Source of the DNA: Agaricus subrufescens
Lineage: Eukaryota > Basidiomycota > Agaricomycetes > Agaricales > Agaricaceae
Direction: 5' to 3'
Length of the DNA stretch: 64,000 bases
Assembly: GCA_029945375.1 (NCBI GenBank)
Contig: CM057062.1
Coordinates: forward strand, 2,185,564-2,249,563
Shown: in pieces, positions 6,123 through 56,753 of the stretch
Numbering within the stretch: position 1 is the stretch's first letter
Layout: each line of letters opens with the position of its first letter
Notes under the pieces: generated by a model
What the model saw: the letters and a program-made list of their open reading frames with translations, nothing else
Database searches by the model: none
Told to the model about the DNA's origin: nothing
Program-made: the position numbers and the translations under genes

Positions 6123-6401
6123 ACTTTTCTGGGATTCGATATGTGGTAGTCTTTGACTTCTGTATCTTATGCTGTTAATGAATTTGAATCGTTGTTATCA
6201 CAAGTTTGCTGTTTGACTGAGGGCTGCAACATCGTTATTACGTGTTCGGATCTTGCCAGGGTTCGATCAGATCTATCTCGCCGGCGGGCGTCGCCGCGTG
6301 TGCTCGGCATCGTTCTTCTCCCCATCAACAACACCTGCACGAGAGTCTGAACTTGCACTGAACCCGCACCCAACAACGTCGCGAGAGGCTAACTACAAGA
6401 G

Positions 6402-7372
6402 ATGGCCTCCCTAAAAATCGCTACCCTTGTCATTCGGGTATGTCTTCTCGCGCTCATTTCGTTGCATTTCCTTAGGTGGAGCTGAAATAAAGGTGGTTTC
6501 TTTTGCTTTTCCTGCCGCTTGAAAACCGTCTGGTCCGAACCTTCTTGAAAATCACGACGCGGCACTTGGTATCGCCGTCACTTGTTGCAAATATCACTAG
6601 ACGGTTGCCAAACCCATAGCCTCAAGAATAAAAACACAAGCCAAGGAGTACGCCTGTCTTCCTTTCATCTTCTACCCCAACCTTGAGCACCCTCTTTCCA
6701 TCTGACAGACACGACCGTTTCCGTAATTTTTGCGTGGACCTTGCCCAACTCCTCCACCGTTCCGAAATTCAACTTCGAACAAACATCCTGGGTGAACCTC
6801 CACGACACAACATCAGGCCGCTATCAGAATCAAGGTTTGTAAAATTACCTCCTCCGCCCGTTTCACAACGACACGCGTTTTAAACAACCTAACTCAAAGG
6901 GCAATTGAGAACGGAGCCAACTTTCTCGCGGAGGGATTCTTATTCACTGTCGCCGCTTCATTAATAATAGGCGAGACTTGGCGTTCGTCTAGATCACAAT
7001 CTAAGCGGAGGGACACTGTGAACGATCAGCTACAAGACCTCAATGATCGAGTAACGGAGTTGACAAGTCAGGTGAACACACTAGAACAAAGATGGGGGGA
7101 CGAAATACAGAGTGTCAGAGACAGGTATAACACACCTGACTCAAAACGATGTAACCTCGTATCTGACCAAGTCACTGAACAGGAATGATGAGTTGACCCG
7201 GGTGCTAGAGCGCATACTTTGGATAGGGCTTAAAGGCGGTTGGACAGACGTTCATAGTGATGAATGGCAGCGCGAGTTCGATTCCATCGTACAGGCGATT
7301 GAAGAACCAAGTACCCAACAACGTAAATCCGACGGTTCACCTAATTCTAATTCCAACACTAGCTTGCCATAG
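6402..7372 (+). CDS. OPA3-like mitochondrial protein
   Basis: OPA3 family (optic atrophy 3), a conserved protein linked to mitochondrial membranes and morphology. Exons: 6402-6437, 6601-6647, 6709-6834, 6900-7124, 7183-7372; 624 nt, 207 residues, frame intact. The start MASLKIATLVIR is the usual family N-terminus, followed by TVAKPIASRIKTQAKE, then HDRFRNFC, HRSEIQLRTNILGEP and the hydrophobic stretch FLAEGFLFTVAASLIIGETW. A coiled-coil-like region follows (about residues 108-140). The last exon adds a tail that is longer than in animal OPA3. The NACHT gene follows 970 bases downstream on the same strand. This copy looks functional; its duplicate at 23510 is broken. Confidence 0.85.
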
Positions 7373-8346
7373 CATTCCTACTGTGTGGAGTTGCGTGAGT
7401 CCAAACCGCATTGAAACTCGTCGCTAATCATACATAATTGGCAAGTCATTAACTAGATGATGTATCTCTCGAAGTTATTAATATAGACCAACTCTATAAT
7501 ACCCCTGTCATCAATCCCTTTGCCGCTGCCCCATATACTTCTCCCGCTCACCATCCGGTCTCTTTATCCTCGTTGAGACCGCAGAAACTTTGATCATGCC
7601 AATCTTGTGCCACAACTGAATCCCGTCCTATCAGTCGTTGATCGTCCTAGAGTTGTTTTGTTGCATTCTTTGATCAGTTGCACTCCGAAATTCTCTCGAT
7701 TCTGCATGCCAAGTCAATTTGGTGATGGTTAATTGCTTGGACAGGTTCCTTTGAAAGAGACAAAATTCGATCACTCCGAGAAGGAAAAGTACAAAATGGT
7801 GTTTGGTAAACGTAAACAATAGGTGCGTACGTCTTTCAGTGAATCAAGGTTCTTGAAGGATTATCATCTTTTAGTTCTACAAGGGCCGCGGTAAGTCGAT
7901 AGAAACGTTCTTGCAACCCTCTCGAGATCTACCGGTGTTTATATGCGGGGCGGAACCTAGGGTTCAAGCGGGGACATATGACGGTCCAGCGCGGTGGTTT
8001 TCATGTTCATGGTTTACCTCAGTAATTTTTTCCGCCAACGGCCAGTCTTATACATGTTTTTGTCCCCTCTGCTGCTCCGAGGTCCTGCAGTGAGACGTGG
8101 GGTCATGTAGCGCAGCCTTCGTTTGTAGTTTATAATTAGCACAAGCACAGCACGTCTGTGAGAGAACTCATGCCCATCAGAGGCACGAGGCCAACTGATT
8201 TCTCTTCGCAACCCAACCCCGTACAGACAGATCCCCGCTCACGAAACTCCAACTCAAAGAGGTGTGGCTCGAACGTTATACTTTCGCAATCCTTGCAGCG
8301 GTCCTCTTGACACAGCTTCTATTTTCCGTTCGCAGCACTCTAAATC
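7373..8346. other. Intergenic between OPA3-like and NACHT genes
   Basis: No gene recognised. The interval is conserved in the duplicate (about 24490-25475) with scattered substitutions, so it was copied with its neighbours and may hold the NACHT promoter. No clear TATA box or repeat stands out. Confidence 0.5.
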
Positions 8347-11300
8347 ATGGCTTGTTGCTTCGGGCTGTTTAAACGTAGGCGTAGTAGCAGCGCGGTCGAT
8401 CAGCTTGGGCTGGGAGGCTCGTCTAGGTCCTTACCGGGAACTTCAGGTATGCTCCGTATCCTTGCACGAAAACACAGTCCGACCTTATGGTCGCTTCAGT
8501 CCCTCTCCAGTCTGTCCAGCCGATGCCCACCGCCATCATGGTCCTTGAGTCTGGCCCCGAAAATCGACCTTCGCCTCTGCCGGACACAGGAGGTGTGTTT
8601 CTGCGTATACTTGCATAAGAACACCAAATTCATGTCCGCCTCAGACCCTGTTCCACCCATCGAACCGACACCTATGGCCACCGTAGCCCGTGATGTCAGT
8701 ACCGAAAGTCATGTTTCGTCTTCACAAAATGCCCCAGGTGCGTTCTTGTGTGTATTTGTATGACGAGAAAGTCAAGATTCATGGTTGCCCCAGCCCCTCT
8801 CTCACCCGCCCCACCGATGCCCAACAACCCCGTGATCCATGACTCTAGTGCTGAAAATGATAACTCATCCTGGCGGGATATTGGAGGTGCGTCTTTGTGT
8901 GTATTTAAATGATGACAATCAGGGTTCATGGTTGCCTCAGCTCCGCCTGGTTCAGGCAGTCCCTTTAGCGGAGCTCATGACTTCAATATTTACGGTGGCA
9001 ACTTTACGGCAGTCTACGGTGGTACCGTCACGGGGATCCACGGAGAGGACAAAATACACCGTAGTAAGAAATATCATGTCATTCTTTCAGGAATTAAACT
9101 CATTCGCGTTATCTTCAGTGATGCAATTACTTTTAAAGTATGTTATGGACGGTGCCGCGCCAAACGATGCCTCCCGCAAGTATCGCCCCAGGTGTCATCC
9201 CGGCACACGCGAAGCACTTCTCAAATGGCTCCTGGCTTGGTTCGAAGACCCGTCCCGCTCCGAATCCCTTTTTCACCTTACTGGTCCAGCAGGCGTTGGT
9301 AAATCCGCCGTCATGCAGACCTACACAGAAAAGGCGGATCATCCCGTCATTTCTGTATTCATTTCACGACCGAACAAATGTAACGACCCGAACCGTGTGT
9401 TCACTACTATCGGATACCGACTCGCTGATCAGATCGAAGCATACCGCAACTGTATCGTTGACCGCGTTACTACTAGTCCCGACATTCTCAACAAAGACAT
9501 GGAGACTCAATTCCAAGTCTTCATCGTCGAGCCATTCGTAGTGAGGAATGTTGGAGCTGGCAGGCCGCCCTCGGCTATACTGCTGGATGGACTTGACGAG
9601 ATTGAGGGTGTAGACGCACAGCGACAAATTATCCGACTCATTGGCACGTTTATCCACGAACACCCAAATGCACCCCTTGCCTGGATCATTGCGAGTCGTC
9701 CAGAGTTCCATATAACCAACACGTTCAAAGAGACGCCAATCCAAGGGCGGTTCAAGTCATACACCATCTCCATCGACGACCCGGATGGTCGTCGAGACGT
9801 TGCTAACTTCTTGTCTGCCGGCTTCGACGAGATAAAACGCGAGTACGCTGACCTCATCCCCCAGAACTGGCCTGAGGGGACAAAGGTCGCGAAGCTTGCC
9901 GCTGCTTCCTCTGGCCTCTTCATTTTCGCTCAAACTGCGCTTCGGTTCATTCGGGATCTTGATCAATCTGACCCTGTTTCAAGCCTCGATCTTGTCTTAT
10001 CCGTCATTGATCGTTCGAAGGGTGTTCCGAGCGAGGAGCAGCCCTTCAGGAATCTCGACAACTTGTACACCGAGATTCTGTCGAAAATCTCAACGGCGAT
10101 GCTACCCACAACAAAACGCTTGCTTGCGCTGGCGTTGGCATTCCGCAGTGACAACTTTCTTGGGCTAAATGCTTCGTCGAAATCTCGTACTCTGAGAGGC
10201 ATGGCTCTGATTCTCCAGCTGGATCAGGATAAAGTCCATCTCGCTCTCATCAAGTGTATTTCAACACTCAAGATACCGCGCCGGAAGGAAGCACATAAGA
10301 TGCCGTTGACATTCTTACATGCTTCTTTTGCCGACTACCTGGTGGATGAGCAAAGATCGGGGAAGTTTTATATTGATGTTGATGGTATTGAGGACGATGT
10401 GTTACTGGGCTATCTCAACTTGTGGGATAAATATTCTGGGGAGGATTCAGGTACGTCTGAGTATATCATCATCGTGTTTGAGTAATGCTTATACCAGCTT
10501 TCAGCTGCTCGAGCCAAATTTACCAGTGCGGGAATGCCAGGACTCCCGGAAAAGGAAATTGTAGCATTTACCACAGATATTCTCGCGGAAATGGGTGACA
10601 GACTACTAACCGAGATAGTGAACAGGCATAAGCATCAGCAAGGGACTTCGTCACAATCGCAGCAAAAAGCTATTGAGGGTTTCGATGCCCTCCTAAATAT
10701 CAACATGATCAGGCTTTGCAACTTCAATGATAGTCTGTGGGCCGCTGACTACAGTTTTAGCATTGTATATGTATTTGTTAGGAGTGCATTTGAGGCATGG
10801 AAGGTAGTATTGGACTTGGTATCAAACATAGGGATTTCTGACTGTTGTTACAGGAATTTCGATATGAACTTGGAAAAAACGGGATGTTTCAAGAGGTCTA
10901 CTACAAGGATATAGATATTGACTTGAATGTTAATGGAAAATATATGGTTAAAGTGGTAAGTAAATGAGGCAGTGAAGTGTTGACTGTTATTGACTATTTC
11001 GTTTGACAAATGTGATGGATCAGCCTGTAAGTGGATGAGTTGGTGAAGTCTGGTCTGTCATTGACTATTTCTCTTCCACAAATCTCATCCATCAGGGTGT
11101 AAGTATATCAGTTAGTGAAGTCTGGTCTGTCATTGACTATTTCTCTTCCACAAATCTCATCCATCAGCTTGTAAGTACATGAGTTGGTGAAGTCTGGTCT
11201 GTCATTGACTATTTCTCTTCCACAAATCTCATCCATCAGGGTGTAAGTACATCAGTTGGTGAAGTCTGGTCTGTCATTGACTATTTCTCTTCCACAAATC

Positions 11301-12527
11301 TCATCCATCAGGGTGTAAGTACATCAGTTGGTGAAGTCTGGTCTGTCATTGACTATTTCTCCTCCACAAATCTCATGCATCAGCTTGTAAGTACATGAGT
11401 TGGTGAAGTCTGGTCTGTCATTGACTATTTCTCTTCCACAAATCTCATCCATCAGCCTGTAAGTACATGAGTTGGTGAAGTCTGGTCTGTCATTGACTAT
11501 TTCTCTTCCACAAATCTCATCCATCAGCCTGTAAGTACATCAGTTGGTGAAGTGTGGTCTGTCATTGACTATTTCTCTTCCACAAATCTCATCCATCAGC
11601 TTGTAAGTACATCAGTTGGTGAAGTGTGGTCTGTCATTGACTATTTCTCTTCCACAAATCTCATCCATCAGCATGTAAGTACATCAGTTGGTGAAGTCTG
11701 GTCTGTCATTGACTATTTCTCTTCCACAAATCTCATGTGTCAGGGTGTAAGTACATGAGTTGGTGAAGTCTGGTCTGTCATTGACTATTTCTCTTCCACA
11801 AATCTCATCCATCAGGCTGTAAGTACATGAGTTGGTGAAGTCTGGTCTGTCATTGACTATTTCTCTTCCACAAATCTCATCCATCAGATTGTAAGTACAT
11901 CAGTTGGTGAAGTCTGGTCTGTCATTGACTATTTCTCTTCCACAAATCTCATCCATCAGCATGTAAGTACATGAGTTGGTGAAGTCTGGTCTGTCATTGA
12001 CTATTTCTCTTCCACAAATCTCATCCATCAGGGTGTAAGTACATCAGTTGGTGAAGTCTGGTCTGTCATTGACTATTTATCTTCCACAAATCTCATGCAT
12101 CAGATTGTAAGTACATGAGCTGGTGAAGTCTGGTCTGTCATTGATTATTTCTCTTCCACAAATCCTTGTGATCAGCTTGTGAGTCCATCAGTTCCTGTTC
12201 TGTTATCTGTGCTTCACTATTTCTTTTCTACATAATCAGGGTGTAAGTACATCTGCTGATGAACTGTAGTTGGTTATTCATCATTTTCACTCTGCTTTAC
12301 AAGGTTATTGATAAAAAAACAAAACGGTTCTTAAAAAAGTCACCCAATCTACAAGTCCTTATATGCGGAGCAATTCCGGGTGGTCAAGTTGCAATTATTC
12401 CTGGAGATGACAAGAGGGACACATACTGTATTGTTCCTTACCACCCAAGAAGTACTGAACAAGTTGAGGAAGTAAGTCTAACATATTTTTTTTCTCTTCA
12501 TCTGCTGATCCTCGGGGACAGGTGTAG
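8347..12527 (+). CDS. NACHT NTPase (fungal NLR-like), copy A, with microexon array
   Basis: STAND-type P-loop NTPase of the class fungi use in self/non-self and stress recognition. Proposed exons: 8347-8446, 8500-8592, 8645-8737, 8794-8886, 8941-9063, 9119-10450, 10505-10803, 10854-10955, then 18 three-base exons in 10956-12303, then 12304-12471 and 12522-12527. Phases agree throughout; about 820 residues with all microexons, 802 without. The N-terminus is Ser/Pro-rich with three 31-residue repeats, followed by AHDFNIYGGNFTAVYGG, a motif typical of these proteins. The NACHT domain has KYRPRCHPGTR, Walker A GPAGVGKSAV, Walker B ILLDGLDEIEG and WIIASRPEFH. After the array comes a 56-codon exon (VIDKKTKRFLKKSP start) of unknown fold. 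I saw no WD40, ankyrin or TPR repeats. Splicing of the array and the last two codons are the least certain parts. Confidence 0.8.
8500..8886 (+). repeat. Three tandem 93-nt exons in the NACHT gene
   Basis: Exons 8500-8592, 8645-8737 and 8794-8886 are each exactly 93 nt (31 codons), flanked by the same phase and by similar introns of 52-56 nt that start GTGYGTNYTTG and end with a CATG..CTCAG-like stretch. The encoded segments share a Pro-rich start, a central V.....E and a Ser/Asn-rich end. This is tandem duplication of an exon plus its intron. Any of the three can be skipped without changing frame. Confidence 0.75.
10956..12303 (+). repeat. Tandem intron/microexon array A (19 introns, 18 three-base exons)
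   Basis: Starts immediately after the coding exon ending MVKV and ends immediately before the exon starting VIDKK. First unit 68+3 nt; units 2-17 are 72 nt each (69-nt intron plus 3); unit 18 is 61+3; the last intron is 61. The sum is 1348, exactly the interval. Each unit opens GTAAGT (once GTGAGT), carries a TGAC/TGAT branch-like site, a pyrimidine tract (TTTCTCTTCC) and closes CAG (the last closes AAG). The three bases between acceptor and next donor read, in order, as residues PGLGGLPPLHGAIHGILG, always codons of the form NNT. All introns are phase 0. Either each unit is spliced, adding one residue per unit, or the block leaves as one 1.35-kb intron. I found no CpG in the 72-nt units. Confidence 0.85.
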
Positions 12528-23045: not shown

Positions 23046-23509
23046 ACGGTCCCCCAGACAAGCTGCCGTAGCCAACAAAGAAAGCCATCAAGGCGCCACT
23101 TGGCGAAATCTTGCTTGGGCCATAAAAACTGAAGAATAACGCGAGTAGGACGGATACGACCTGCATCTCCAGTTCTGAGGACAACTGATGCCTTCCACGT
23201 GCCTTTGTAATAATTCACGGCCTTTCTCACATTGTATATCACTTGAGAAATTTTATGGATCGCTGCCGCTGTGAGAGGCAAAGTTTGATCCTTGAGTCTA
23301 GCCAGATTGTTTTAATTGCGTGGCGGCAAAGTTTGCTCGGTGGCTCGAAAAACCTTGAATAGATTTGCTGTTGAAGTAAAAATAGTATCATTTATTTTTA
23401 CATCGTGCGCTCAGCATCAGTCTTCTCCCCATCAACAACACCTGCACAAGAGTCTGAACCTGCACTGAGCCTGCGCTCCAGCAGCGTCGCGAGAGATTAA
23501 CTACCGGAA

Positions 23510-24489
23510 ATGGCCTTCCTGAAAAACCGCCACTTTTGTCATTCAGATACGCCGTTTTGCGCTCATCTCGTCGCATTTTCATGAGTGGAGCTGAAATAAA
23601 GGTGGTCTCTCGTGTTTCTCCTGCCATTTGAAACTCGTCTGGTCCGAACCTTCCTTACATTCACAACGTGGCATTCGATATCGCCAGTACTTGTCGCAGA
23701 TCCTACGAAACGGTTGCCAAACCCATAGCCTCAAGAATAAAAACCCAAGCCAACTTGCGAAGGAGTACGCCTGCCTTCCTCTCATCTTCCGTCCCAACCT
23801 TGAACATCCTCTTTCCACCTGACAGACACGACCGTTTCCGTAACTTCTGCGTGGACCTCGTCCAACTCCTCCACCGTTCCGAAATTCAACTTCGAACAAA
23901 CATCCTGGGTGAACCTCCACGACACAACATCAGGCCACTATCAGAATCAAGGTATGTAAAATTACCTCCTCCGCCCGTTTCACAACGACACGCGTTTTAA
24001 ACAACCTTACTCAAAGGGCAATTGAGAACGGAGCCAACTTTCTCGCAGAGGGTTTCTTATTCACTGTCGCCGCTTCATTAATAATCGGCGAGACTTGGCG
24101 TTCGTCTAGATCACAATCTAAGCGGAGGGACACTGTGAACGATCAGCTACAAGACTTCAATGATCGAGTAACGGAGTTGACAAGTCAGGTGAACACACTA
24201 GAACAAAGATGGGGGGACGAGATACAGAGTGTCAGAGACAGGTATACCACACCTGACTCAAAACGATGTAACCTCGTATCTGACCAAGTCACTGAACAGG
24301 AATGACGAGTTGACCCGGGTTCTAGAGCGCATACTTTGGATAGGGCTTAAAGGCGGTTGGACAGACGTTCATGGTGATGAATGGCAACGCGAGTTCGATT
24401 CCATCGTACAGGCGATTGAAGAGCCAAGTACCCAAGAACGCAACTCCGACAATTTACCTAATTCTAATTCCAACATTAGCTCACCATAG
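23510..24489 (+). pseudogene. OPA3-like gene, copy B, broken
   Basis: Exons 2-5 are recognisable and similar to 6402-7372, but the first exon is damaged: an indel changes the frame after MAFLKN and the GT donor that follows the start exon in copy A is lost (CGGGTATG became CAGATACG). An extra 8 bases (ACTTGCGA, about 23756) before the next donor shift the frame again. An in-frame ATG at 23668 would give only an unnatural N-terminus. Copy A probably carries the function alone. Confidence 0.75.
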
Positions 24490-25475
24490 CATTCCTACTG
24501 TGTTGAATCGCGTACGTGCAAACCGCATTGAAACTGGTCGCTAATCATACGCAATTGGCAAGTCATTAACTAGATGATGTACCTCTCGAAGTTATTAATA
24601 TAGACCAGCTCTGTAATACCCCTGTCATCAATCCCTTTGCCGCAACCACATATACTTCTCCCGCTCACCATCCGGTCTCTTTATCCTCGTTGAGACTGCA
24701 GGAAAAATTGATCATGCCAATCTTGTGCCACAACTGAATCCCGTCCAATCAGTCGTTGATCGTCCTAGAGTTGTTTTGTTGCATTCTTTGATCAGTTGCA
24801 CTCCGAAATTCTCTCGTTTCTGCATGTCAAGTTAATTTGGTGATGGTTGATTGCTTGGACAGGTTCCTTTGAAAGAGACAAAATTCGATCACTCCGAGAA
24901 GGAAAAGTACAAAATGGTGCTTGGTAAAGGGAAACAATTGGTGCGTACGTCTTTCAGTGAATCAAGGTTCTTGAAGGATTATCATCTTTTAGTTCTACAA
25001 GGGCCGCGATAAGTCGATAGAAACGTTCTTGCAACCCTCTCGAGATCTACCGGTGTTTATATGCGCGGTGGAACCTAGGGTTCAAGCGGGGACATATGAC
25101 GGTCCAGTGCGGTGGTTTTCATGTTCATGGTTCTTCGTTATGTTGCCTCAGTAATTTTTTCCGCTACCGGCCAGTCTTATACATGTTTTTGTCACCTCTG
25201 CTCCTCCAAGGTCCTGCAGTGAGACGTGTGGTCATGTAGCGCAGCCTTTGTTTGTAGTTTATAATTAGCACAAGCACAGCACGCTTGTGAGATACCTCAT
25301 GCCCATCTGAGGCACGAGGCCAGCTGATTCCTCTTCGCAACCCAACCCCGTACAGACAGATCCCCGCTCACGAAACTCCAACTCAAAGAGGTGTGGCTCG
25401 AACGTTATACTTTCGCAATCCTCGCAGCGGTCCTCTTGACACAACTTTTATTGTCTGTTCGCAGCACTCTAAATC

Positions 25476-28400
25476 ATGGCTTGTTGCTTCGGGCTGTTTA
25501 AACGTAGGCGTAACAGCGACGCGGTCGACCAGGTTGGGCTGGGAGGCTCGTCTAGGTCTTTATCGGGAACTTCAGGTATGCTCCATATCCTTGCACGAGC
25601 ACCCAGTCTGACTTTATGGTCGCTTCAGTCCCTCTCCAGTCTGTCCAGCCGATGCCCACCGCCATCATGGTCCTTGAATCTAGCGCACAAAATTGTCCTT
25701 TGCCTCCGCCGGACACAGGAGGTGTGTTTCTGCGTATACTTGTATAAGAACACAAAATTCATGACCGCGTCAAACCCTGTTCCACCCATCGAACCGACAC
25801 CGATCGCCACCGTAGCGCATGATGTCAGTGCCGAAAGTCATGTTTCGTCTTCACAGGATGTCCCAGGTGCGTTCCTCCGTGTATATGTATGACGAGAGAG
25901 CCAGGATTCATGGTTGCCCCAGCCCCTCTCTCACCCTCCCCACCGATGCCTATCACCACCGTGGTCCATGAGTCCGGTGCCGAAAATCGCGATTCGTCCT
26001 CACCGGATATTCAAGGTGCGTCTTTGTGTGTATTTGAATGGTAACACTCGGAGTTCATGGTCGTCTCAGCCCCGCCTGGTTCAGGCAGCCACTTTGCTGG
26101 AGCTCATCACTTTAATATCTACGGTGCCACCTTCACGGAGAGCCACGGAGAGGATAAAGTACATCGTAGTAAGAAATGTCGTTTCATTCTTCCAGGAAAT
26201 AAGCTCATTCGCGTTGTCCTCAGTCATGGAATCACTTTTAAAGTATGTTATGGACGGTGCCGCGCCAAACGATGCCTCCCGCAAGTATCGCCCCAGGTGT
26301 CATCCCGGCACACGCGAAGCACTTCTCAAATGGCTCCTGGCTTGGTTCAAAGATCCCTCCCGCTCCGAATCCCTTTTTCACCTTACTGGTCCAGCAGGCG
26401 TTGGTAAATCCGCCGTCATGCAGACCTACACAGAAAAGGCGGATCATCCCGTCATTTCTGTATTCATTTCACGACCGAACAAATGTAACGACCCGAACCG
26501 TGTCTTCACTACTATCGGATACCGACTCGCTGATCAGATCGAAGCATACCGCAACTGTATCGTTGACCGCGTTACTACTAGTCCCGACATTCTCAACAAA
26601 GACATGGAGACTCAATTCCAAGTCTTCATCGTCGAGCCATTCATAGTGAGGAATGTTGGAGCTGGCAGGCCGCCCTCGGCTATACTGCTGGATGGACTTG
26701 ACGAGATTGAGGGTGTAGACGCACAGCGACAAATTATCCGACTCATTGGCACGTTTATCCACGAACACCCAAATGCACCCCTTGCCTGGATCATTGCGAG
26801 TCGTCCAGAGTTCCATATAACCAACACGTTCAAAGAGACGCCAATCCAAGGGCGGTTCAAGTCATACACCATCTCCATCGACGACCCGGATGGTCGTCGA
26901 GACGTTGCTAACTTCTTGTCTGCCGGCTTCGACGAGATAAAACGCGAGTACGCTGACCTCATCCCCCAGAACTGGCCTGAGGGGACAAAGGTCGCGAAGC
27001 TTGCCGCTGCTTCCTCTGGCCTCTTCATTTTCGCTCAAACTGCGCTTCGGTTCATTCGGGATCTTGATCAATCTGACCCTGTTTCAAGCCTCGATCTTGT
27101 CTTATCCGTCATTGATCGTTCGAAGGGTGTTCCGAGCGAGGAGCAGCCCTTCAGGAATCTCGACAACTTGTACACCGAGATTCTGTCGAAAATCTCAGCG
27201 GCGATGCTACCCACAACAAAACGCTTGCTTGCGCTGGCGTTGGCATTCCGCAGTGACAATTTTCTTGGACTACATCCTAGGACGAAATCTCGTACTCTGA
27301 AAGGCATGGCTCTGGTTCTCCAGCTGGATCAGGATAAAGTCCGTCTCGCTCTCATCAAGTGTATTTCAACACTCCAGGTACCGCCCTGGAAGGAAGCACA
27401 TAAGATGCCGGTGACATTCTTACATGCTTCTTTTGCCGACTACCTGGTGGATGAGCAAAGATCGGGGAAATTTTATATTGATGTTGATGGTATTGAGGAC
27501 GATATGTTACTGGGCTATCTCAACTTGTGGGATAAATATTCTGGGGAGGATTCAGGTACGTCTGAGTATATCATCACCGTGTTTGAGTAATGCTTACACC
27601 AGCTTTCAGCTGCTCTCGGCAAATTTATCAGTGCTGGAATGCAAGGACTCCCGGAAAAAGAAATTGTAGCATTTACCACAGATATCCTCGCGGAAATGGG
27701 CGAAAGGCTACTAACCGAGATAGTGAACAGGCATAAGCCTGAGCAAGGGATATCGTCACAGTCGCATCAAAAAGCTATTGAGTGTTTTGATGCCCTCCTA
27801 AATATCAACATGATCAGGCTTTGCAACTTCAATGATAGACTGTGGACTGCTAACTACAGCTATGGCATTGTATATCTATTTGTTAGCAGAGCATTTGAGG
27901 CATGGAAGGTAGTATTGGACTTGGTATCAAACATAGGGATTTCTGACTGCTGTTCTAGGAATTTCGATATGAACTTGGTAAAAACGGGATGTTTCAAGAG
28001 GTCTACTACAAGGATATAGATGTTGACTTGGATGTTAATGGAAAATATATGGTTAAAGTGGTAAGTAAATGAGGCAGTGAAGTGTTGACTGTTATTGACT
28101 ATTTTGTTTGACAAATGTGATGGATCAGCCTGTAAGTGGATGAGTTGGTGAGGTGTGGTCTGTCATTGACTATTTCTCTTCCACAAATCTCATGCATCAG
28201 CTTGTAAGTACATCAGTTGGTGAAGTCTTGTCTGTCATTGACTATTTCTCTTCCACAAATCTCATGCATCAGGATGTAAGTACATTAGTTGGTGAAGTCT
28301 GGTCTGTCATTGACTATTTTTCTTCCACAAATCTCATGCATCAGGATGTAAGTACATCAGTTGGTGAAGTCTTGTCTGTCATTGACTATTTCTCTTCCAC

Positions 28401-29780
28401 AAATCCCATGCATCAGGCTGTAAGTACATCAGTTGGTGAAGTCTGGTCTATCATTGACTATTTCTCTTCCACAAATCTCATCCATCAGCTTGTAAGAACA
28501 TCAGTTGGTAAAGTCTAGTGTGTCATTGACTATTTCTCTTCCACAAATCTCATGCATCAGGATGTAAGTGCATCAGTTGGTGAAGTGTGGTCTGTCATTG
28601 ACTATTTCTCTTCCACAAATCTCATGCATCAGATTGTAAGTACATCAGTTGGTGAAGTCTGGTCTGTCATTGACTATTTCTCTTCCACAAATCTCATGCA
28701 TCAGGTTGTAAGTACATGAGTTGGTGAAGTGTGGTCTGTCATTGACTATTTCTCTTCTGCAAATCTCATGTATCAGGGTGTAAGTACATTAGTTGGTGAA
28801 GTGTGGTCTGTCATTGACTATTTCTCTTCCACAAATCTCATGCATCAGGGTGTAAGTGCATCAGTTGGTGAAGTGTGGTCTGTCATTGACTATTTCTCTT
28901 CCACAAATCTCATGCATCAGATTGTAAGTACATCAGTTGGTGAAGTCTGGTCTGTCATTGACTATTTCTCTTCCACAAATCTCATGCATCAGGTTGTAAG
29001 TACATGAGTTGGTGAAGTGTGGTCTGTCATTGACTATTTCTCTTCCACAAATCTCATGCATCAGGGTGTAAGTGCATCAGTTGGTGAAGTGTGGTCTGTC
29101 ATTGACTATCTCTCTTCCACAACTGTCATGCATCAGCCTGTAAGTACATGAGTTGGTGAAGTGTGGTCTGTCATTGACTATTTCTCTTCCACAAATCTCA
29201 TGCATCAGCATGTAAGCACATGAGTTGGTGAAGTCTGGTCTGTTATTGACTATTTCTCTTCCACAAATCTCATGCATCAGCCTGTAAGTAGATGAGTTGG
29301 TGAAGTCTGGTCTGTCATTGACTATTCCTTTTCCACAAATCTCATGCATCAGGTTGTAAGTACATGAGCTGGTGAAGTCTGGTCTGTCATTGATTATTTC
29401 TCTTCCACCAATCCTTGTGATTAGCTTGTGAGTACATCAGTTCCTGTTCTGTTATCTGTGCTTCACTATTTCTTTTCTACATATTCAGGGTGTAAGTACA
29501 TCTGCTGATGAACTGTAGTTTGTTATTCATCATTTTCACTTTGCCTTACAAGGTTATTGATGAAGAAACAAAATGGTTCTTACAAAATTCACCCAATCTA
29601 CAAGGTCTTATATGTGGAACAATTCCTGGTGGTCAAGTTGCAATTTTTCGTGGAGACTGCAAGGGGGACACATACTGTATTGTTCCTTACCACCCGAGAA
29701 GTACTGTACATGACATTGAGGAAGTAAGTCTAATATATTTCTTTTTCTCTTCATCTGCTGATCCTTCGGAACAGGTGTAG
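25476..29780 (+). CDS. NACHT NTPase (fungal NLR-like), copy B, with microexon array
   Basis: Same layout as copy A: Ser/Pro-rich N-terminus with 93-nt exons, GAHHFNIYGATF motif, NACHT core with KYRPRCHPGTR, GPAGVGKSAV, ILLDGLDEIEG and WIIASRPEFH, then the exon ending MVKV, an array with 20 three-base exons (28061-29552), the VIDEETKWFLQNSP exon and a conserved GTG-TAG after the last acceptor (29778-29780). The core open frame has no stop. Difference: the acceptor of the second 93-nt exon has changed from CAG to CAA at 25771-25773, so this exon is probably skipped, which keeps the frame. The NACHT core differs from copy A by only a few bases per kb. Probably expressed; not certain. Confidence 0.75.
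28061..29552 (+). repeat. Tandem intron/microexon array B (21 introns, 20 three-base exons)
   Basis: Lengths: first unit 68+3, eighteen units of 69+3, one of 61+3, last intron 61; the sum 1492 equals the interval exactly. The three-base exons read PLDDALDIVGGIVGPHPVLG, again all NNT codons in phase 0. The first and the last three units match array A in position and type, while the middle differs in number and codon order. Donors are GTAAGT with single variants GTAAGA, GTAAGC and GTGAGT; acceptors are CAG except one TAG and a final AAG. Confidence 0.85.
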
Positions 29781-53348: not shown

Positions 53349-54797
53349 ATGACAGACAATCAGTCCGCGACCTCGAAAAAACAAATCATCGCTGTTTGGG
53401 CAGGATGGTCGGTGACGAAGGAGTACACACCCGAAGAACAGGCTGGCCAGCCACCACTCAGGGAGATCGTGACCGGGCTCTCGTTAGATGTCACAAATCA
53501 GCTTGTCCGGGACTTCAGTGTCAACCCTCCAAGTTTCCGTCGCGCCCTACCCATTCCCGCCTGTGGGTACCACTGCTAGCTTCCTTGACTCCTTCCTTGA
53601 ATCTTCACTTGTCTTAGATCCAGAGAACTCGACTCTTGCGGATATGCCTAACGATACGCCCCTCGTAGTCCTGGTTTCACACCCGCGGAGTTTTACAGAA
53701 AATGTCAAGCAAAGCATCCACCAACAGCGTAATGTCCTATGTTCAAATTGTCTTTGTCGTATATTTAATCATAGTGGTAACTAGGTGACACGTTGTCCGA
53801 AATTCGGGAGATGATGGCCCAATTGCAGCAGCAAAATGACAAGAAGATGGAAGGGATGCAGAAAACGATGAGCGAAACGATAGACAAAAAGGAGCGTCAA
53901 AACAATAGCAAGATGGAAGAGTTGCGCAAGACACTTAACAGAGAACATGACAAAAAGATAGAAGAGTTGCAGAAAACGATGAACGAAACGATAGACAAAA
54001 AGGAGCGTCAAAACAGTACCAAGATGGAAGAGTTGCGCAAGGCACTTAACAGAGAACATGACAAAAAGATAGAAGAGTTACAGAAGACGCTAAACGGACA
54101 ACGGGACAAGAAGATAGAAGAGATTCGGAAAGCAATGAACCAAAGGATAAACGAAAAGGAACGTCAGAACAATAAGAAGATGGAAGATATGCGGGAAACG
54201 ATCGACGGACAGCATGACAAGAAGATGGAAGAGATGCGGAGAACGATCAACGGGCAACATGACAGGAAGATAGAAAAGATGGAGCGGCAACATGAGGAGG
54301 AGATCGACAGCTTGAAGAATGATCTGAAGGATACAAAACAAAAAACGACCCAACTCGAACGGAATCTGGCGGACCTGCGGACCTCGCACGAACAGCTACG
54401 ACGTGTAAGTTGCCCAATTTTCTTACCACGCCCAGACTTATATTTCCAGTCCATTTTCTATTTGCATCTCCGGTACCTCCTCGATCAAGCACGGAGCAAA
54501 ATCGCAGCAGAGTTTGAAAAGAAGACTTGGGATTCGCTTTTGAAAACCTATCCAGACAAACCGGCTCTGGTAGGACACATTTACTCTCATTTCGCTAATT
54601 CCTCCACCGCGCTTTCCGACAAATGCATCCGTCTCCTTTGTTATCCCAGCGATATCCGTGATGAGGGTGATCATACAGCTCATAGTGCAACAAAAGATGA
54701 GGTTCTTCTCGCTATCATGGAGTTGCAGGTGCGGAATCATCGTGCAGAACTGGCGATGTTATTTCACTATGTGTTTGGGGATCATCTGGCTGTTTGA
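53349..54797 (+). CDS. Coiled-coil protein of unknown function
   Basis: Proposed exons 53349-53562, 53618-53728, 53785-54404, 54450-54797; 1293 nt, 430 residues, phases consistent. The N-terminal ~105 residues are soluble and unrecognised (VWAGWSVTKEYTPEEQAGQP, with VLVSHPRSFTENVKQSIHQQ at the end). Residues about 110-300 are a long coiled coil made of near repeats of the type HDKKIEELQKTMNETIDKKE with strong heptad spacing. The C-terminal ~115 residues form a separate helical-looking domain (DKCIRLLCYPSDIRDEGD). The third intron is only 45 nt and could be retained without frame loss. An upstream in-frame ATG at 53277 would add 24 residues. Confidence 0.65.
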
Positions 54798-56334: not shown

Positions 56335-56753
56335 CTGACTTTGTAAGTATCCTGCATGTCTCCGTTCAAGTTAGGTTAAACATGTTTTCCAGGGCTGGGA
56401 CACTAATGGAGACACAGCTACTGCTGTAGAATTTGTAAGTATCCATTTATCCCTGTTACAGGTAAATTAAACATGTTTTTGAGGGCTGGGCAACTAGCGG
56501 TGGCATGGCGGCTCCTGCGAAATATGTAAGCATCCCGTACGCCTCCTTTCCAGTTAAGTTGAACATATTTTGCAGGGCTGGGGCACTAATGGAGACACAG
56601 CTGCTGCTGTAGAATTTGTAAGTATCCCGTTTGTCCCTGTTTCAGGTAAATTAAACATGTTTTCAACGTGTTTTTGAGGGTTGGGCAACTAGTGGTAGCA
56701 TGGCGGCTCCTGCTGTGTCTGGATGGACGGTTCCAGCAAATTCTGAAGAATCG
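56335..56753 (+). repeat. Tandem 42-nt exons at the 3' end of the HSF-type gene
   Basis: Exons 56393-56434, 56484-56525 and 56576-56617 are 42 nt (14 codons) each; a fourth, 56679-56753, is 75 nt. They encode GWDTNGDTATAVEF, GWATSGGMAAPAKY, GWGTNGDTAAAVEF and a longer GWATSGSMAAPAVSGWTV.. form. Introns of 50, 50 and 61 nt share GTAAGTATCC donors and AACATGTTTT..AG ends. The A-B-A-B order shows duplication of a two-exon unit. Confidence 0.8.

Follow-up and report, generated by a model that had tools for sequence, protein, structure and literature searches.

Can a protein segment be encoded by exons of a single codon each, with introns as the repeated spacer? The question is raised by a 64,000-nucleotide stretch of the Agaricus subrufescens genome (Basidiomycota; Agaricaceae; GenBank assembly GCA_029945375.1, contig CM057062.1, positions 2,185,564 to 2,249,563 of the forward strand; hereafter the window), in which a NACHT (NLR/STAND-like) gene is interrupted by a run of near-identical short introns with single triplets between them. 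The comparative evidence says yes, as far as DNA can tell: the triplets appear to be real exons, and tandem duplication of an intron together with one codon probably builds and reshuffles a recognition loop of 4-31 residues in the genes of a NACHT subfamily. The run at issue, array A, is given first.

Array A: 10956..12303, + strand, 19 introns and 18 single-codon exons coding PGLGGLPPLHGAIHGILG, by direct reading and parsing

The preliminary description filled this interval with 19 introns and with 18 exons that each measure exactly 3 nucleotides, and the parsed lengths agree to the nucleotide: introns of 68, sixteen times 69, 61 and 61 nucleotides plus eighteen times 3 sum to 1348. The first 3-nucleotide exon lies at 11024-11026, further ones follow in 72-nucleotide steps to 12176-12178, and the last occupies 12240-12242. 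The 5' splice site is GTAAG in 18 introns and GTGAG in one (the 18th), the 3' end is CAG in 18 introns and AAG in the last, and with Tandem Repeats Finder the period comes out at 72 nucleotides, with 17 copies and 93% matches. Both flanking exons are in phase 0, as had been claimed, so that the triplets are read as codons, one residue per 3-nucleotide exon. The suggestion of a single-residue repeat has to be abandoned, since the residues differ and all 20 amino acids occur among the 358 codons counted in 20 arrays; the product would therefore be a variable loop. The broader proposal, that these are functional tandem introns with translated one-codon exons in an NLR-like gene, gains support across the 20 arrays from splice-site conservation, codon-position variability and the lack of stops, set out below.

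Array A is one of many. We scanned the 44.65-Mb genome (G000) for 3-nucleotide exons between GTAAG...YAG introns of 45-75 nucleotides and obtained 323 matches to two consecutive 3-nucleotide exons (163 and 160 by strand) against 0 in the reversed control, which rules out chance for the array pattern, although some of the matches may lie outside this family. Twenty-two array loci were read (numbered with L below, apart from arrays A and B of the window; contigs with C), one of them an exact copy and one partly degenerate, and all lie in NACHT genes. They fall into two classes, with units of 72 nucleotides and of about 71 nucleotides (a 68-nucleotide intron plus a codon). The 72-nucleotide unit matched 211 times, its 13 candidate places being spread over contigs C6, C8 and C9, and all 13 were read; a DNA search with the 71-nucleotide unit gave 159 matches and at least three further array places outside the 22 (C25 near 128.8-129.4 kb, C27 near 64.5-65.5 kb, and the start of C25). 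One of these places is found some 1.8 kb upstream of the exon of L069. The arrays hold 4 to 31 one-codon exons (20 arrays), and their introns measure 45-75 nucleotides, merged (broken) units aside.

The exon that follows the array provides an independent handle on the family, as a protein search with it found 31 places in the genome. Twelve belong to the 72-nucleotide class and nine (L054 to L060, L062 and L063; L056 is the partly degenerate one) to arrays of the roughly 71-nucleotide unit, while in L061 and L064 the exon carries a stop and the upstream 1.5 kb that was read contains one junction. Four paralogs (L066, L067, L068 and L070) have a single ordinary phase-0 intron of 60-62 nucleotides at the array site, between R and P, which supports such an intron as the ancestral state. 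L069, L071 and one unlisted place are unclassified. Wherever both flanking exons were found the array sits at the same intron site; among the matches listed, the arrays read represent one site of one gene family. In another paralog, L065 (C7:2389499), a 9-nucleotide micro-exon, CACGATTGG, read by eye, occupies the array site with a short intron on either side and could represent an intermediate.

Two pairs of loci deserve separate mention. L032 and L033 (C6, near 2.40 and 1.84 Mb) are identical over 8441 bp with 0 mismatches, either because they duplicated very recently or because the assembly contains one segment twice. L059 (C1) and L060 (C25) share 98.4% identity over 3.1 kb on different contigs and are perhaps alleles, their arrays differing by units (DDSPNPMYMLFPLFPWH and DDSPNPMYMYMYLFPWH). 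L033 is excluded from array counts and column statistics as identical to L032, the partly degenerate L056 from all statistics, L038 (5 introns) from splice-site and nearest-neighbour statistics, and broken units, which are merged with a neighbour, from codon counts.

The alternative that survives best is a plain minisatellite in one long intron (1348 nucleotides in array A), its internal splice-like sites being mere repeat content and the array being excised whole. The unit is indeed a tandem repeat, alike within arrays, outer splice sites exist, and some arrays persist in damaged genes. Against it stands the preservation of the internal splice sites: in the 375 units of 19 arrays only 17 GT/AG sites are broken (counted as merged units), where 150 would be expected had they changed as fast as other intron positions, so that the layout of a spliceosomal intron, GT...branch site...AG, is found unit by unit. 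L054, L055 and L058 keep every GT/AG and the 3-nucleotide spacing, even though their introns range from 54 to 75 nucleotides and about 20% of intron sites deviate from consensus. In four old arrays, T at +6 (0.87-1.00) and a pyrimidine at -3 (0.93-1.00), neither forced by the parser, and A at +3 and +4 (0.87-1.00, forced in part) exceed the inner mean of 0.78-0.89. The same arrays carry the motif T[AG]A[CT] in 14/15, 22/22, 30/30 and 13/17 introns, weak evidence for so short a motif.

The triplets themselves vary in the manner of codons. In 12 arrays of the 72-nucleotide class, pairwise difference is 0.64, 0.74 and 0.11 at codon positions 1, 2 and 3 and 0.063 in the intron; positions 1 and 2 rank among the top three of 72 columns in 11 of the 12 (the miss being L038, with 3 units), and position 3 is invariant in 8. 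Nearest-intron neighbours (339 units, 19 arrays) give 0.52, 0.63 and 0.14 against 0.063. The 358 codons include no stop and no NAG triplet, a would-be second acceptor, where 4.1 NAG would be expected, and 310 of them end in T. The introns, in turn, contain an in-frame stop in 190 of 358 cases and are not a multiple of three in 159 of 358, a count that omits the last intron of each array. Taken together, splice-site conservation, the codon-position pattern, the codon, stop and NAG counts and the intron stops argue that the triplets are exons, and we regard the minisatellite as unlikely.

Beside these patterns, one intron column is worth recording. Column 11 (for array A, within 10956-12303) is the most variable intron column in the 72-nucleotide class and holds mainly C or G. 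G creates an in-frame TGA upon intron retention, and a stop is present in 75/75 introns with G; with C, 71/83 introns lack a stop and are mostly open. The C/G difference could be a retention switch or chance.

If the triplets are exons, where does their variation come from? Unit pairs with identical 69-nucleotide introns differ at codon positions 1/2 in 88 of 106 cases, and at both positions in 53. Where units can be aligned securely, codons hardly change: L054/L055 differ at 38/1055 intron sites and 0/15 codons, L059/L060 at 16/1134 and 2/16, and array B/L036 at 5/1225 and 1/17; L032/L033 show no intron differences and 0/23 codon differences, and a five-unit block repeated within L032 (HHIYA twice) differs at 17/345 intron sites and 0/5 codons. 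More distant pairs differ in most codons (A/B, 55/1294 intron sites and 14/18 codons; L031/L039, 40/804 and 8/11; L034/L037, 62/1169 and 15/17; L059/L062, 54/738 and 7/10; L040/L041, 35/605 and 6/8), in comparisons whose introns are too alike for certainty that equivalent units are paired. We read these data as introns homogenised within arrays while codons persist, with new loops coming mainly from units that are gained, lost or exchanged; when distant arrays are paired unit by unit, different units would then be compared.

A second alternative accepts real single-codon exons and takes the triplet for a spot of locally raised mutation, such as a junction at which repair or recombination is error-prone, so that its variability would be uninformative on selection. 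The frequent difference of identical-intron units at both codon positions fits this idea, as do distant paralogs such as A and B, which differ in most codons at modest intron divergence. Codons that remain unchanged where units align securely while introns drift count against it: in L054/L055 and the L032 block, whose units are distinctive, a tenfold rate predicts about 16 changes at the 40 position-1/2 sites, where the intron rate predicts 1.6 and none was seen. Moreover, a hotspot would not spare position 3, yet that position is invariant in two thirds of the arrays compared. We consider this explanation quite unlikely in general, although a hotspot confined to some lineages may exist.

Alternatively, an introner-like element could have inserted serially between the codons of an older continuous peptide, without tandem duplication. 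This would account for diverse codons amid near-identical introns. Blocks of units repeat together with their codons, however (HHIYA in L032; alternating Y/M units in L060), the codons predominantly end in T, and units resemble those of the same array (by eye), all of which makes serial insertion very improbable. Finally, a coding repeat, in which the 72-nucleotide unit would be translated into 24 residues, one of them hypervariable, can draw on a unit length divisible by three, on 87/358 introns open in the codon frame and on an open stretch that was seen, but it is rejected as a general reading by the in-frame stops and frame-breaking intron lengths counted above (a stop in all 19 counted L034 introns, all 31 L063 introns off frame) and by the conserved splice signals, and we give it next to no credence.

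Several observations weigh against our preferred reading of translated one-codon exons under selection. Five of the 19 arrays lack clear splice-site constraint (L034, L040, L041, L057 and L062; P 0.10-0.62), including two, L034 and L041, in genes that are stop-free in the tested exons, and because units share ancestry, P-values overstate their independence. Position 3 varies (T/A) in L034 (0.40), L037 (0.50) and L041 (0.30), and the absence of stops, against 2.4 expected among the 358 codons, is not significant alone. In the 72-nucleotide class, all four exons are stop-free at 8 of 13 loci (A, B, L031, L034, L036, L037, L038 and L041); the damaged genes comprise L032/L033, whose NTPase (nucleoside triphosphatase) exon has one stop, L040, which contains stops, L035, in which the downstream exon is missing, and L039, in which the upstream exons are missing, and some of their arrays look as tidy as those of intact genes (L032 has 0 broken sites). 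Given 1.6 changes expected at the intron rate, the 0 codon changes are by themselves no proof of purifying selection. The ratio of nonsynonymous to synonymous substitution rates, dN/dS, in 9 of the 28 pairs of 8 intact genes is 0.28-0.37 (six deeper pairs) or 0.79-0.92 (three close pairs) in the NTPase exon and 0.26-1.10 in the C-terminal exons, so that positive selection on the flanking exons was not found in these pairs, the values being mostly below 1. Purifying selection on codons with neutral homogenisation of introns can suffice for the within-array pattern, and diversifying selection is for that reason not proven. The spliced C-terminus of gene A has 0 homologs at E<=0.01 among 5.8 billion proteins, a weak test since the search also missed the Agaricus bisporus relatives.

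The window contains two genes of this family, laid out below.

9145..10450, + strand: gene A, NACHT/NPHP3_N-type NTPase exon (Pfam PF24883, Agaricus bisporus homologs; gene 5' end provisional)
10505..10803, + strand: gene A, exon 2 (open frame and splice sites; conserved at 12/13 loci of the 72-nucleotide class)
10854..10955, + strand: gene A, exon preceding the array, EFRYELGKNGMFQEVYYKDIDIDLNVNGKYMVKV, ending in phase 0 (conserved at 12/13 loci of that class)
12304..12471, + strand: gene A, exon following the array, VIDKKTKRFLKKSPNLQVLICGAIPGGQVAIIPGDDKRDTYCIVPYHPRSTEQVEE (conserved at 12/13 loci of that class; 31 genome matches)
26250..27555, + strand: gene B, NACHT-type exon (96% amino acid identity with gene A)
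27612..27908, + strand: gene B, exon 2, matched part (82% amino acid identity with gene A)
27959..28060, + strand: gene B, exon preceding the array (locus comparison)
28061..29552, + strand: array B, 21 introns (68, 18x69, 61 and 61 nucleotides) and 20 single-codon exons coding PLDDALDIVGGIVGPHPVLG
29553..29723, + strand: gene B, exon following the array (locus comparison)

Array B, absent from the preliminary description, lies in a gene paralogous to gene A, both genes falling within a duplicated segment of 6 kb (6297-12237 and 23404-29341, 92%). The array is preceded by the NTPase exon, exon 2 and a 34-codon exon, in that order, and followed by a 56-codon exon, after which gene A likely has a final exon giving V-stop, read by eye. 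Between A and B, synonymous divergence (dS) is 0.02 in the NTPase exons (9145-10449 and 26250-27554), 0.20 in exon 2, 0.06 (one change) in the exon preceding the array and 0.16 in the exon following it; the low value in the NTPase part against 0.06-0.20 elsewhere suggests gene conversion there.

The NTPase exon of gene A matches PF24883 above its cutoff (E 9e-13) and PF05729 (NACHT) at E 2e-4 and 21.7 bits, under the 26.7 cutoff of that family. It contains GPAGVGKS and LLDGLDE, which we take to be the P-loop and Walker B motifs. In a comparison with the PDB, a model of an A. bisporus homolog matched the NTPases of Cdc6/ORC, CED-4 and plant NLRs over the NTPase part only. Pfam, motifs and structure matches agree in assigning the product to the STAND/NACHT-type NTPases, and its best named homologs are from A. 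bisporus (58% at best) and Macrolepiota. Scanned individually, exon 2 and the exon that follows the array matched 0 Pfam families, WD, ANK, TPR and LRR repeats included; the nearest A. bisporus protein (P0011, Agabi119p4_10318), searched with its C-terminus, found only itself at E<=0.1 among the 5.8 billion proteins; and no Rfam family reached its gathering score across the window. In an alignment made by eye, P0011 is longer by about 20 residues where the array would lie. The AlphaFold model of another A. bisporus homolog (P0024; 37-sequence alignment, mean predicted local distance difference test score 83) has a C-terminal alpha/beta region, in which the array site, again aligned by eye, is a short loop, RPRS, between strand 650-654 (TWITH) and helix 659-675. 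Judging from this model, the array codons would add 4-31 residues to that strand-helix loop.

Elsewhere in the window, at 56340-56740, a different gene has a further tandem array of intron plus exon, read by eye, with 3.5 copies of a 92-nucleotide period; introns of about 50 nucleotides alternate there with 42-nucleotide exons that code for segments resembling GWDTNGDTATAVEF and GWATSGGMAAPAKY. Nested tandem repeats of 45, 111 and 156 nucleotides at 53836-54281 would, in a putative frame, code K/E/R-rich residues, possibly a coiled coil.

How could such arrays have arisen? We propose that in the ancestral NACHT NTPase subfamily the C-terminal domain was interrupted by one ordinary phase-0 intron, and that tandem duplication of this intron with one adjacent codon produced the array, each codon becoming its own exon. 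Each intron would be spliced out separately and sequentially by intron definition, leaving an mRNA with a run of 4-31 extra codons, whose residues would make up the loop that links a beta strand to a helix in the C-terminal alpha/beta domain. Introns would be homogenised within the array while selection preserves splice sites and codons. Because gain, loss or exchange of a whole unit would keep the reading frame, recombination could reshuffle the length and sequence of the loop without frameshifts, and since splice sites are alike across units, skipping of units during splicing would also stay in frame. By analogy with the diversifying repeats of other fungal NLRs, the loop is likely a non-self recognition surface. 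More tentatively, unit recombination and optional in-frame skipping might together make a 'codon cassette' receptor, a combinatorial NLR loop resembling a complementarity-determining region, with possibly many variants per gene; this is a possibility we consider doubtful at present.

If transcripts confirm the arrays, they would represent a gene architecture in which every codon of a protein segment has an exon to itself and introns serve as exchangeable spacers. Spliceosomes would have to handle some 20-30 back-to-back 3-nucleotide exons, a stringent test of intron definition, and fungi would possess a frame-safe means of making a receptor loop longer or shorter and of reshuffling it, with an effect comparable to antibody or transcription activator-like (TAL) repeat diversification. 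Since annotation pipelines would probably miss such arrays, they may exist unseen elsewhere.

Several known systems share single features with these arrays, and we compare them here within the parts of the cited sources that were available. The micro-exon genes (MEGs) of Schistosoma mansoni contain runs of tiny exons, mostly multiples of three, with splicing-linked protein variation; their exons are mostly 15 bp (minimum 6 bp in the body of the article, 3-81 bp in its abstract), their introns span 0.1-5 kb, and they encode secreted trematode proteins (PMC10526429). The likeness lies in the many symmetric micro-exons, here 4-31 of them per array in 20 arrays and at the DNA level only. The A. 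subrufescens exons differ in being exactly 3 nucleotides, with near-identical introns of about 69 nucleotides (45-75 overall), in fungal NACHT genes, which places them outside a family of secreted trematode proteins with long introns. Closer in biology are the repeat domains of fungal NLRs, which show concerted evolution and positive selection; tandem repeats in NACHT genes are homogenised, variable in number, carry few hypervariable positions and are tied to non-self recognition (PMC4986451). Those repeats are protein-coding (WD, ANK or TPR), whereas here it is the intron that is homogenised, with one coding codon per unit, and 190/358 introns carry stops and 159/358 are off frame.

That spliceosomes, fungal ones included, can include exons of 1-3 nucleotides is indicated by the single-nucleotide exon of Fusarium CYP621A, which has transcript support (PMC12940212), and by the 3-bp exon of RPS24 (PMC12686416). 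In what was accessible of these reports, both exons are isolated, without a tandem array or variable codons. Introns are also described as arising when a tandem duplication spans an intron-exon boundary, the new intron inheriting splice signals, as proposed here; this is one event, in contrast to up to about 30 repeats at one site with the codon as the sole exonic part. The bicycle genes of aphids, insect effector genes, reportedly have many small exons, and we know of no tandem identical introns in them. They form a rapidly evolving family (PMC9168663). Our literature search found no one-codon-exon tandem array at title and abstract level, most subscription papers and bioRxiv preprints being outside its coverage, and none of the nearest systems, as far as their sources were seen, combines one-codon exons with homogenised introns in tandem. 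The components of these arrays are known singly, and the overall architecture appears to be new.

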